DNA from: Xylanimonas protaetiae
GTDB taxonomy: Bacteria; Actinomycetota; Actinomycetes; Actinomycetales; Cellulomonadaceae
Reading direction: 5' to 3'
Assembly: GCF_004135385.1 (NCBI RefSeq)
Contig: NZ_CP035493.1
Location: 62,001 to 126,000 of the forward strand
DNA length: 64,000 nt
Part shown: in pieces, positions 38,771 through 51,788 of the stretch
Layout of the letters: the number at the start of each line of letters is the position of its first letter
Position numbering within the stretch: the first letter of the stretch is position 1
Notes under the pieces: model-generated
Databases searched by the model: none
Told to the model about the DNA's origin: nothing
What the model saw: the letters and a program-made list of their open reading frames with translations, nothing else
Translations under genes and position numbers: made by a program

Positions 38771-42366
<3,596 letters not shown>

Positions 42367-42371
42367 AGGGC

Positions 42372-42531
42372 GTCCGGGCCACGATCCGGACACCCGCGCG
42401 CCTGGCCCGAAGGCCGGCGCGGCGCGAGCGGGGCCACGATCCCGCTCGCACGGTGCCCGCCCCCGGGGCCACGATCCCGGGGGCGGGGTGCACCCCGTGC
42501 GGAGTGCGCACCCGGGCCACGATCCGGGTGC
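42372..42531. repeat. array of four hairpins with an invariant 8-nt loop
   Basis: Four perfect stem-loops share the loop GCCACGAT (plus strand; AUCGUGGC in adhE-sense RNA): 42372-42391 (6-bp stem), 42424-42449 (9 bp), 42456-42487 (12 bp) and 42508-42531 (8 bp). The stems differ in sequence but each is fully complementary; only the two closing GG/CC pairs are constant. Between the first and second lies another hairpin (42397-42421) with a UUCG tetraloop on the minus strand, and a GGGGTGCACCCC palindrome follows the third. The array starts 54 bp past the adhE stop. The rest of the 320-bp intergenic region holds no gene. Function unknown. Confidence 0.85.
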
Positions 42532-42584
42532 TGTCCGCCGCCGTCGCCCGGAGGAGTGGGCGGGCGGCGAAGCCGAACAAGAAC

Positions 42585-45320
42585 TCAGGCCTTGACGCGG
42601 GCCGGGTTCATGTCCAGGTACTCGACGCCGGCGAGACGCTGCTCGCGCACCGTGTCCTGGGTGATGCCGTAGTACGCGGCGACCATGATGTCCTTCATGT
42701 CCTGCAGCATCGGCAGACGCGGGTTCGCCGGGGCGCACTGGTCCTCGTAGGCGCGCATCGCCAGGGCGTCGAGCCCGCCGATGTAGTCCTGCTCGGAGAC
42801 GCCCTGCGCCGCGAACGACGGCTCGACGCCGATGCGGGTGGCGAGGTCGCGGCACGCGTTGGCGTACGACTCCACCGCCTCCTGCGGCGTCGAGGCCGGC
42901 AGGCCGAGGTGCTTGGCGATGACCTGGAAGCGCTCCGGGGCGACGTACTTCTCCGCCTTCGGCCAGCCGGTGACCTTGCCCGGGACGAGACCGTTGTAAC
43001 GGATCGCGTAGGGCAGGAACATGGCGTTGGTGCGGCCGTGGATGAGCTTGTGCGTCGCGCCGACGGTGTGCGACATGGCGTGCACGATCCCCAGGAACGC
43101 GTTGCCGAACGCCATGCCGGCGATCGTCGCGGCGTTGTGCATCTTCTCGCGGGCCTCGGTGTCGCCGCTCAGGGCCGACTTCTCGATGTTCTCGAAGACG
43201 AGCTTGATGGCGTGCAGCGCCAGGCCGTCCGTGAAGTCGTTGGCGTAGACGGAGACGAACGCCTCGGTGGCGTGCGTCAGGGCGTCCATGCCCGAGTCGA
43301 CGGCGAGCTTGGCCGGCATCGACGCGGTGAGCACCGGGTCGACGATCGCGACCGACGGGGTCAGCGCGTAGTCGGCCAGCGGGTACTTGTAGCCGGTCTT
43401 GTGGTCGGAGATGACCGCGAACGGCGTGACCTCGGCGCCCGTGCCCGACGACGTCGGGATGCACACGAGCTGGGCGAGCTTGCCGAGCGTCGGGTACTGG
43501 AAGGCGCGCTTGCGCACGTCGAAGAACTTCTCGCGCAGGTCGGCGAAGTCGAGCTCGGGGTGCTCGTACTTGAGCCACATGACCTTCGAGGCGTCCATCG
43601 GCGAGCCACCGCCGATGGCGATGATCGTGTCGGGACGGTGGTCGCGCATGAGCTGCGCGCCCTTCTCGACGGTCTCGACGCTCGGCTCCGGCTCGACGGT
43701 GTCGATGATCTGCACGGCGACGGGGTTGTCGCGGCGGTGCAGGACGTCGAGCACCTTGTCGACGATGCCGATCTCGGGCGAGGCCATCACGCGGTCGGTG
43801 ACGATGGTGACGCGCTCGACGCCGCGCATGTCGGCCAGGTACTGGATCGAGTTCGGCTCGAAGTACGTCTTCGGCGGGACCTTGAACCACTGCATGTTGT
43901 TGTTCCGCCTCGCCACGCGCTTGACGTTGATCAGGTTGACGGCCGACACGTTGTTCGACACCGAGTTGGCGCCGTAGGAGCCACAGCCCAGCGTGAGCGA
44001 CGGGATCAGGGCGTTGTAGATGTCGCCGATGCCACCGAGGGCGGACGGCTGGTTCCACAGGATGCGGACGGCCTTGACGCGGCGGCCGTACTCCTCGGAG
44101 AGCGCCTTGTCGAGCGTGTGGATGGCGGCCGAGTGGCCCAGGCCGTCGAACTCCACCATCTGCTCGGCGAGGCGGATGCCCTCCTCGGTGCTGTTGGCGC
44201 GCAGCACGGCCAGCAGCGGCGAGAGCTTCTCGCGCGACAGCGGCTCCTGCGGGCCGACGCCCGAGATCTCCGCGAGCAGGATGCTCGTGTCGGCGGGCAC
44301 CGTGAAGCCGGCCTGCTCGGCCAGCCAGACGGCGGACTTGCCGACGACGGCGGCGTTGAGCTTGGCGCCGGCGCAGTTCTCCGACATCGCGGTGACGCCG
44401 AAGAAGTACTCCTCGAGCTTCGCCTTCTCCTCGGCGTTCACGACGTAGGCGTGCATGCGGCGGAACTCCGCGAGCGCCTCGTCGTAGATCTCGGCGTCGA
44501 GGATGACGGCCTGCTCAGAGGCGCAGACCACACCGTTGTCGAAGCCCTTGGACAGGACGATGTCGTTGACCGCGCGGCCCAGCTTGGCGTCCTTGGCGAC
44601 GTAGGCGGGGACGTTGCCGGCGCCGACGCCGAGGGCGGGCTTGCCGGTCGAGTAGGCGGCGCGGACCATCGCGTTGCCGCCGGTGGCGAGCACGAGCGAG
44701 ACGCCCGGGTGGTTCATGAGCTCGGAGGTCGCCTGGATCGAGGGGTGCTCGATCCACTGGACGCAGTCCTCGGGGGCGCCGGCCTCGATGGCGGCGTCGC
44801 GCACGATCTTCGCGGCGGCGATCGAGCACTGCTGGGCGCTCGGGTGGAAGCCGAAGATGATCGGGTTGCGCGTCTTGATGGCCATGAGGGCCTTGAAGAT
44901 CGCGGTCGACGTCGGGTTGGTGACCGGGGTGACGCCGGCGATGACGCCGACGGGCTCGGCGATCTCGACGATGCCGCGCAGGTCGTCGCGGCCGATGACG
45001 CCGACGGTCTTCATCTTGGCCATCGAGTGCGTGACGTGCTCGCACGCGAAGATGTTCTTGGTGGCCTTGTCCTCGAAGATGCCGCGGCCGGTCTCCTCGA
45101 CGGCGAGCTGGGCGAGGGTGCCGTGCTCGTGCAGGGCGGCGATCGACGCCTTCTTGACGATGTGGTCGATCTGCTCCTGCGTGAAGTTCGCGTAGGCGTC
45201 GAGCGCCTTCAGGCCGCGCTTGACCAGCGCGTCGACCTCGGCGGCGGCGTCGTGCGCGACGACGGCGGGCTGCGCGGCGGCGACCTCGTCGGCCTGCTGG
45301 GCCTTCTTGGTGGGGCTCAC
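42585..45320 (-). CDS. adhE: bifunctional acetaldehyde-CoA/alcohol dehydrogenase
   Basis: A 911-residue AdhE that reduces acetyl-CoA to ethanol in fermentation. The N-terminal aldehyde dehydrogenase half (1-450) has the catalytic Cys in FDNGVVCASEQAV; the C-terminal iron alcohol dehydrogenase half (460-911) has AIGGGSPMDASKVMWLKYEHPE and the metal-ligand region FLGIVHAMSHTVGATHKLIHGRTNAMFLPY. AdhE proteins form long spirosome filaments. GTG at 45320 has AGGAGG 8 nt upstream. A Rex/CRP-type palindrome lies 49 bp upstream, fitting redox or catabolite control. Its presence indicates facultative fermentation. Confidence 0.96.
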   Translation of the reverse strand: MSPTKKAQQADEVAAAQPAVVAHDAAAEVDALVKRGLKALDAYANFTQEQIDHIVKKASIAALHEHGTLAQLAVEETGRGIFEDKATKNIFACEHVTHSMAKMKTVGVIGRDDLRGIVEIAEPVGVIAGVTPVTNPTSTAIFKALMAIKTRNPIIFGFHPSAQQCSIAAAKIVRDAAIEAGAPEDCVQWIEHPSIQATSELMNHPGVSLVLATGGNAMVRAAYSTGKPALGVGAGNVPAYVAKDAKLGRAVNDIVLSKGFDNGVVCASEQAVILDAEIYDEALAEFRRMHAYVVNAEEKAKLEEYFFGVTAMSENCAGAKLNAAVVGKSAVWLAEQAGFTVPADTSILLAEISGVGPQEPLSREKLSPLLAVLRANSTEEGIRLAEQMVEFDGLGHSAAIHTLDKALSEEYGRRVKAVRILWNQPSALGGIGDIYNALIPSLTLGCGSYGANSVSNNVSAVNLINVKRVARRNNNMQWFKVPPKTYFEPNSIQYLADMRGVERVTIVTDRVMASPEIGIVDKVLDVLHRRDNPVAVQIIDTVEPEPSVETVEKGAQLMRDHRPDTIIAIGGGSPMDASKVMWLKYEHPELDFADLREKFFDVRKRAFQYPTLGKLAQLVCIPTSSGTGAEVTPFAVISDHKTGYKYPLADYALTPSVAIVDPVLTASMPAKLAVDSGMDALTHATEAFVSVYANDFTDGLALHAIKLVFENIEKSALSGDTEAREKMHNAATIAGMAFGNAFLGIVHAMSHTVGATHKLIHGRTNAMFLPYAIRYNGLVPGKVTGWPKAEKYVAPERFQVIAKHLGLPASTPQEAVESYANACRDLATRIGVEPSFAAQGVSEQDYIGGLDALAMRAYEDQCAPANPRLPMLQDMKDIMVAAYYGITQDTVREQRLAGVEYLDMNPARVKA

Positions 45321-45368: not shown

Positions 45369-45386
45369 TTGTGAAGACTTTCACAT
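45369..45386. promoter_or_regulatory. Rex- or CRP/GlxR-type operator upstream of adhE
   Basis: TGTGAA-N4-TTCACA (45370-45385) matches the Rex consensus core (TTGTGAA...TTCACAA) and equally the CRP/GlxR consensus TGTGA-N6-TCACA. Rex represses fermentation genes such as adhE when NADH/NAD is low; GlxR responds to cAMP. The sequence alone cannot decide between them. Confidence 0.75.
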
Positions 45387-45387
45387 G

Positions 45388-45402
45388 TGTGGTCTGACCA
45401 CA
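45388..45402. promoter_or_regulatory. second palindrome upstream of adhE (GntR-like)
   Basis: TGTGGTC-T-GACCACA is a perfect 7-bp inverted repeat, 2 bp from the Rex/CRP-like site. Its TGGTCTGACCA core is like operators of FadR-subfamily GntR regulators (for example LldR). Assignment is by similarity to known cores only. Confidence 0.5.
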
Positions 45403-45572
45403 ACCCGGATGGCGTGTGACGTACGCCTCTCCGGCCGGATCTGCGCGACCCTGACCGTGGTGCCAGGGGGGTCGCGCCTCCGTCATGCACTGTCACGCGC
45501 GAGGGCAACACCCGGCAAACGGAAGGCGTCTCGCGAGCGGGCGCGCGGCGCGCCCGGCCGGGCCGGACCCGC

Positions 45573-46223: not shown

Positions 46224-46292
46224 GCTCGCAACCTACCGGCGTCCCGCGCGCCCCGTCGCGCCGGGCCGGGCAACCCCGGGCGGGGCGGTCAT

Positions 46293-46390
46293 GGCCGAGC
46301 GGTCACGGCCGAGCGGTCACGGCCGAGCGGTCACGGCCGAGCGGTCACGGCCGAGCGGTCACGGCCGAGCGGTCACGGCCGAGCGGTCAC
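46293..46390. repeat. 14-bp tandem repeat, seven exact copies
   Basis: Seven identical head-to-tail copies of GGCCGAGCGGTCAC (46293-46390). The last two copies overlap the 3' end of the SagB-like gene and supply its stop codon. Such arrays vary in copy number by slippage and make a strain-typing marker. No spacers, so not CRISPR. Confidence 0.95.
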
Positions 46391-51580: not shown

Positions 51581-51610
51581 GACGACGCGGCGGCCGCGCA
51601 CTCGGGACGA

Positions 51611-51788
51611 GGGTCGCGCACGACCTGCGCTGCGCTACGTGCGGGTGCCTCGTTCCTCGGCCCCCACCCTCCGCTACGCTCCGGCCGCGCGCTCGGGCTG
51701 AGGGGTCGCGCACGACCTGCGCTGCGCTACGTGCGGGCGCCTCGTTCCTCGGCCCCCACCCTCCGCTACGCTCCGGCCGCGCGCTCGG
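51611..51788. repeat. 92-bp tandem duplication at the end of the MetE-like gene
   Basis: Copy one 51611-51702, copy two 51703-about 51788, one mismatch in the shared part. The unit starts GGGTCGCGCACGACC. Copy two contains the last 23 nt and stop codon of the MetE-like gene on the minus strand, so copy one is an extra, displaced gene end. The 185-bp gap between this gene and the oligopeptidase is made almost entirely of this repeat. Confidence 0.85.

Follow-up and report, generated by a model that had tools for sequence, protein, structure and literature searches.

The hairpin row behind adhE

In the window, by which we mean the whole stretch of 64,000 nucleotides from Xylanimonas protaetiae that was analysed, the ~250 nt on the 3' side of the adhE stop codon carry a row of hairpins on the adhE-sense (minus) strand, arranged in the order H0-H1-H1b-H2-H3-H3b-H4-T (Table 1). 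The feature is wider than the interval 42372..42531 to which an earlier note on this DNA had assigned it, as it runs from the CUCCUCC-loop hairpin H0 through the terminator-like hairpin T, 3' of which there is no clear T-run. That note had described four hairpins just past adhE with one invariant 8-nt loop on stems of 6, 9, 12 and 8 bp, and both points hold: the exact loop (GCCACGAT on the plus strand, ATCGTGGC on the minus strand) is present in each of H1-H4, and the lengths are correct as strict Watson-Crick counts in coordinate order, i.e., for H4, H3, H2 and H1, the stems comprising 10, 11, 12 and 8 pairs in the same order if minus-strand G.U is allowed.

Table 1. Positions, within the window, of adhE, the hairpins behind it and the sites in front of it
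Feature	Position	Strand	Basis or remark
adhE, bifunctional aldehyde/alcohol dehydrogenase	42585..45320	-	Pfam Aldedh, Fe-ADH and ADH_Fe_C above cut-off; array at the 3' end
H0, CGCCC-ACUCCUCC-GGGCG with CUCCUCC in the loop	42545..42562	-	CUCCUCC invariant in 7 carriers
H1, 8-bp stem, loop AUCGUGGC at 42516-42523	42508..42531	-	Stem invariant; loop altered in G010 and G005
H1b, spacer hairpin with variable loop	42490..42507	-	Folding and alignment; absent in G005
H2, 12-bp stem, loop AUCGUGGC at 42468-42475	42456..42487	-	Two-sided change in 3 pairs
H3, 11-bp stem with one wobble, loop AUCGUGGC at 42433-42440	42422..42451	-	Two-sided change in 3 pairs
H3b, spacer hairpin with UUCG loop	42398..42420	-	UUCG only in the window's genome among 7 compared
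H4, 10-bp stem with one wobble, loop AUCGUGGC at 42378-42385	42368..42395	-	Complementarity and folding
T, strong terminator-like hairpin, arms 42334-42347 and 42349-42362 (14 bp)	42334..42362	-	Closes the array; two-sided change in 5 of 14 pairs
adhE Shine-Dalgarno sequence GGAGGAG, complementary to the H0 loop	45327..45333	-	Shared by all seven carriers of the array
adhE upstream region, TTGTGGTCAGACCACA palindrome and TGTGAAAGTCTTCACA	45370..45403	-	Comparison of 7 carriers

Chance can be rejected as the origin of the shared-loop hairpins, since none of 5000 dinucleotide shuffles of 42265-42590 placed the same 8-nt loop on at least two hairpins and, among 200 shuffles of the whole window, two hairpins with a shared 8-nt loop arose in one and three in none. 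The real window contains one further repeated 8-nt hairpin loop, TGACCGCT, which stems from a 14-bp tandem repeat at 46285-46390 (GCGGTCACGGCCGA, 7.6 copies) that yields repeated hairpin-like loops; another tandem repeat, with a unit of 92 bp (2.2 copies, 95% matches), lies at 51591-51788. The word GCCACGAT is itself common, with 303 places in the window's genome and 8 in the window, where 3.09 would be expected, so that the signal resides in the hairpins and not in the word. The 14-mer SGGGCCACGATCCS is not diagnostic alone either, being present in 28 of 59 relatives, often once or twice, and its fifth match in the window's own genome falls inside an open stretch that, by eye, looks like a peptide deformylase gene.

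The array is adjoined by a ligA frame (38771-42265, minus strand, 1164 aa) with ~340 residues before the ligase domains that have no Pfam match and in which GIY-YIG-like words can be made out by eye. A ligA-like start also lies close behind the array in two of the related genomes (G010 and G002).

Recurrence and conservation of the array

The earlier note had staked its reading on the array recurring in related genomes, and this is what was found: it is present after adhE in seven genomes in total, namely six of the eleven genomes of the genus and one (G027) of another genus. Each carrier has a single array, always after adhE, and in all seven it starts directly 3' of the stop codon, as the note's placement implied. 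The seven carriers are closely related, with adhE 88-100% identical to that of the window. The gene itself was found in 11/11 genus genomes and in 171 of the 221 family genomes (E <= 1e-200), and five genus genomes have adhE without the array (G003, G004, G007, G008 and G009); these five are left out of the seven-genome alignment used below.

A two-unit pattern (GGNTCGTGGCCC-N20-50-GGNTCGTGGCCC) matched in 8 of 221 family genomes, with zero matches for the reversed control, and these eight are the six genus genomes, G027 and G012, the match in the latter being a 12-bp tandem repeat. A three-unit scan of contigs from 84,980 species, which recovered just 3 of the 7 carriers, returned 13 loci. 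The array accounts for three (L086, L097 and L098), which come from a Promicromonosporaceae MAG (WRHK01000074), Xylanimicrobium pachnodae (BCWJ01000023) and Xylanimonas oleitrophica (NZ_QKWH01000013), and the other 10 were rejected as tandem repeats or long open frames in which four such hairpins are absent, judging by eye from sequence, fold and frames. Two matching loci in viral contigs were likewise discarded, both lying inside long open frames. In an order-wide search, 3 of 396 matched (the window's genome, G427 and G581). In G427 the match consists of 22-bp direct repeats that include GGTTCGTGGCCC; they occur at 7 places (L099, L101-L106) and represent a different, dispersed repeat.

A model of the single unit (R1), built from 17 of the 27 available rows (16 distinct units and one shorter unit of the window's genome), gives the arrays of the carriers scores of 27.1 to 39.5 bits, and all other places listed in the 11 genus genomes 27.1 bits or less. 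Of these non-array places, the nine best that were read all coincide with a long open frame in one strand or the other, although in DNA so rich in GC this counts for little. At E <= 0.1, R1 has matches in 34 of 221 family genomes, 27 of which are non-carriers with single or few candidate matches of up to 33.4 bits. In the adhE 3' ends read in other genera, the UCGUGGC repeat is absent and one to several hairpins are found; for 18 of the 19 additional adhE loci the frame was not recognised, and the folds were taken from a fixed offset and judged by eye.

Within the seven-genome alignment, none of the 21 columns at loop positions 2-8 of H2-H4 and none of the 7 columns of the H0 CUCCUCC vary, whereas the H3b loop (5/5 columns), the T loop (3/3), the H1b region (17/17) and the downstream DNA (42/42) are variable throughout. 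The UUCG-loop hairpin that the earlier note had seen inside the array is real in the window's genome but not conserved in its loop. Over the four hairpins and seven genomes, 26 of 28 loops read NUCGUGGC, with N being A in 16, U in 9 and G in 1, and in G002 loop position 1 is U in all four hairpins. The two exceptions both concern H1, namely GCCGUGGC in G010 and GCAGCAGC in G005, the latter being missed by the loop pattern and counted as an exception. In this hairpin 4 of 7 loop columns but none of the 16 stem columns vary, and an invariant stem beneath a loop that changed in two species counts against a pure loop reading. Varying stem columns amount to 2/18 in H4, 11/24 in H2 and 10/22 in H3; in G005, which has no H1b, the outer stems of H2 and H3 are broken while four H2 pairs and six H3 pairs are intact. 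The claim that loops vary less than stems hence stands for the H2-H4 loops against the H2 and H3 stems and fails for H1, and the claim of differing stems, right between hairpins, needs qualifying within one hairpin position, where stems are also well conserved, H1 and H4 in particular.

In H1-H4 and T, standard pairs fill 97.9% of 375 cells and 11 of 54 pairs show two-sided changes. None of 500 shuffles reached that pairing or that number of two-sided pairs, and slid versions of the structure gave 0 to 4 such pairs, although the structure was derived from the same sequences on which it was tested, which favours it over the slid controls. The occurrence of further pair types is unremarkable (70/500 shuffles as high), and all eight H1 pairs are invariant and thus uninformative on compensation.

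Folding energy does not choose between the strands, as the minus-strand RNA of the array stretch folds at z = -6.1 and the plus strand at z = -5.6. Among the stem wobbles, read on the adhE-sense strand, G.U predominates, with nine G.U vs one A.C in H1-H4 and three vs none in T (cells that are not independent of each other), which points to a sense RNA; H0, which is loosely aligned between species, has two A.C and zero G.U. On balance, the functional strand is the adhE-sense RNA; G.T in single-stranded DNA would mimic G.U, so that the strand test alone is also compatible with single-stranded DNA. A guanidine-II-like reading, based on ACGR in the plus-strand loop and checked via Rfam scans only, was rejected since the wobbles favour the other strand. 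Judged from the alignment, the loops of H0 and H2-H4 are constrained and that of H1 less strictly so, the spacer loops are not, and the stems are kept as those of an adhE-sense RNA. Compensated stems, sense-strand wobbles and constant loop columns hence bear out the notion that the strand folds, as opposed to a DNA operator that was duplicated.

The H0 loop and possible functions of the array

In all seven carriers, the CUCCUCC of H0 is the complement of the adhE Shine-Dalgarno sequence GGAGGAG. CUCCUCC-loop hairpins are not unique, as two others exist in the window; GGAGGAG is a common kind of Shine-Dalgarno sequence (2 of 15 crude GGAGG starts read GGAGGAG); and G012 has GGAGGAG in front of adhE, yet its terminator loop is CCCCUCC. 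In the genus g23, the adhE Shine-Dalgarno region reads CUGGAGGAG and the last hairpin 3' of adhE carries UCCUCCAG, each in 7/7 genomes, and UCCUCCAG matches CUGGAGGA of the former with eight complementary bases, in a hairpin different from H0. The first hairpin 3' of adhE has the loop GGAGCAGC in six of these seven genomes (it was not found in L114), in several of them on GGCGUCCGG/CCGGACGCC, the stem that H4 also has in the window. From the g23 hairpins we take a hint, short of proof, that the array may belong to a wider family in which loops are exchanged. The structured adhE 3' region of this genus (L113, L115-L119) also has a GACCC-GAGCGGUAC-GGGUC hairpin.

Upstream of adhE, a TGTGAAAGTCTTCACA-like motif occurs in 7/7 and the palindrome core TGGTCNGACCA in 6/7 carriers; we take TGTGAAAGTCTTCACA to resemble a Rex operator and TTGTGGTCAGACCACA presumably the site of another regulator. 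A kissing interaction of H0 with the UCGUGGC loops via CCAC/GUGG was rejected, because CCAC is missing from the H0 of G001 and G006.

From our point of view, the array may best be understood as an adhE 3'-UTR regulatory RNA with release of a small RNA, in which four loops would serve redundantly for docking and that of H0 would be directed against a Shine-Dalgarno sequence, a tentative proposal to which we would give somewhat less than an even chance. Its parts differ in firmness: that the RNA is constrained at its loops we hold, from the comparison of carriers, with fair confidence, and the exact mechanism with low confidence. A loop-reading partner would be expected to leave such a pattern, with some loops of a transcript constrained and the spacer loops next to them free to change, and the array loops are probably read by some such partner; four equal loops would in addition suggest multivalent docking or redundancy. 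Acting as a 3'-UTR regulatory RNA, the array would be part of an adhE transcript that is probably trimmed to a small RNA ~200-250 nt long, whose four NUCGUGGC loops may dock copies of one trans-acting partner, with a loop-reading RNA-binding protein as our first and a complementary RNA as our second choice. The CUCCUCC loop of H0 could pair with Shine-Dalgarno sequences, foremost the GGAGGAG of adhE itself, and thereby damp translation, and the site upstream of adhE, presumably Rex-like, would suggest that the RNA is made at high NADH. With R1, no second clear site on which a sponged protein might act was found in the 11 genus genomes.

One could go further and imagine a new actinobacterial 3'-UTR riboregulator in which the four loop copies recruit a novel loop-reading protein and a fifth loop feeds back on its own Shine-Dalgarno sequence, an extension that the sequences make conceivable but that we consider improbable. 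If it were true, GGAGCAGC of g23 and GCAGCAGC in the H1 of G005 would represent a second loop type, and the arrays would form a modular family with exchangeable loops. To our knowledge, few RNA-binding regulators are known in this bacterial group, and a protein partner, if found, would be a candidate for a new one; with an RNA partner, on the other hand, the array would be a sponge or a small RNA with several seeds. A short loop that is kept so strictly and in four copies is an unusually good bait, so that a single pull-down could name the partner, with the drifting-loop spacer hairpins of the same array as a built-in control.

Two rivals deserve weight, both of them rather unlikely. The UCGUGGC loops could act as seeds or as a sponge for GCCACGA in another RNA, and the array would then be a small RNA with several seeds, or else a decoy for one. 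The 7-nt loop core is seed-sized and repeated, its word is frequent in the genome (see above), and redundancy of two loops has a precedent in the small RNA B11, where the two are C-rich (PMC10470900). However, in the one arrangement tested, i.e., between GGAG and ATG in 11 genomes, GCCACGA shows no excess (101 real vs 102 in the reversed control), and loop position 1 varies between A, U and G with no known change in a partner. It is similarly doubtful that the array is a multi-hairpin transcript end, whose GC-rich hairpins would stop transcription and shield the adhE mRNA from 3' exonucleases, the identity of the loops then reflecting recent descent. Hairpin T closes the array, one to several strong hairpins follow adhE in other genera of the family, and the H1 and H4 stems are conserved as much as the loops. 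Recent descent is nevertheless difficult to reconcile with the spacer loops and the downstream DNA, which have fully diverged over the same time, and such a transcript end would leave a shared loop on four different stems unexplained; moreover, U-tracts are absent after H1-H4. Finally, a DNA element (a repeated protein-binding site, a cruciform or the mobile single-stranded DNA hairpins that the earlier note had considered) could account for a 16-bp word in four near-copies, but is very improbable given compensated stems, wobbles that are for the most part allowed on just one of the strands and the single array of each carrier genome, always after adhE.

Comparison with known RNA systems

In agreement with the earlier impression that no named element matches the array, no Rfam family reached the gathering score in eight related loci, the three sub-threshold matches within 42000-43000 of the window belong to unrelated families, and none reaches the cut-off. 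No description of the element was found in the open-licence literature.

The ANTAR target RNAs resemble the array in that tandem hairpins are read at their terminal loops by a protein dimer; their rule demands dual hairpins with hexanucleotide loops, A1 and G4, and a linker of 2 to 25 nt (PMC3369931, PMC8164766). An actinobacterial survey of such targets gives only over 50% conservation of A1/G4. The loops of H1-H4 comprise 8 and not 6 nt, with G4 in 28/28 but A1 in 16/28 of them. As for the linker, the spacing of 4 nt between H2 and H3 fits in the window, and the intervals H1-H2 and H3-H4 are each interrupted by a hairpin. Unlike the ANTAR targets in leaders, the array lies 3' of adhE. ANTAR proteins are encoded in 9 of 11 genus genomes, with 3 genes in that of the window, in carriers and non-carriers alike. 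By that family's own rule, the array is not an ANTAR target RNA.

Protein-titrating RNAs of the CsrB/RsmZ type place one loop motif on many hairpins of a single RNA, which the array does likewise, but its loops lack GGA. The CcsR1-4 small RNAs have CUCCUCC-type loops. In Rhodobacter, a single mRNA gives rise to them through maturation of its 3' UTR into several homologous units (PMC8307010), and the array, with several homologous units in one mRNA 3' UTR, resembles them. In contrast to the array, CcsR1-4 are alphaproteobacterial, are separate processed small RNAs and are not known to have UCGUGGC loops.

With 6C and B11, the array shares repeated, redundant hairpin loops, and in B11 a C-rich loop is able to pair with G-rich ribosome-binding regions (PMC10470900). 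The array differs from both in that its four repeated loops read UCGUGGC and H0 alone is C-rich, rather than two hairpins with C-rich loops, in that it is located in an mRNA 3' UTR, and in that it matches neither 6C nor any other Rfam family at cut-off. As in small RNAs derived from 3' UTRs, its structure is conserved and is bounded, on a single strand, by a stop codon on one side and a terminator-like hairpin on the other. By analogy, the array would seem to work most like multi-loop small RNAs such as B11 or 3'-UTR arrays such as CcsR1-4.
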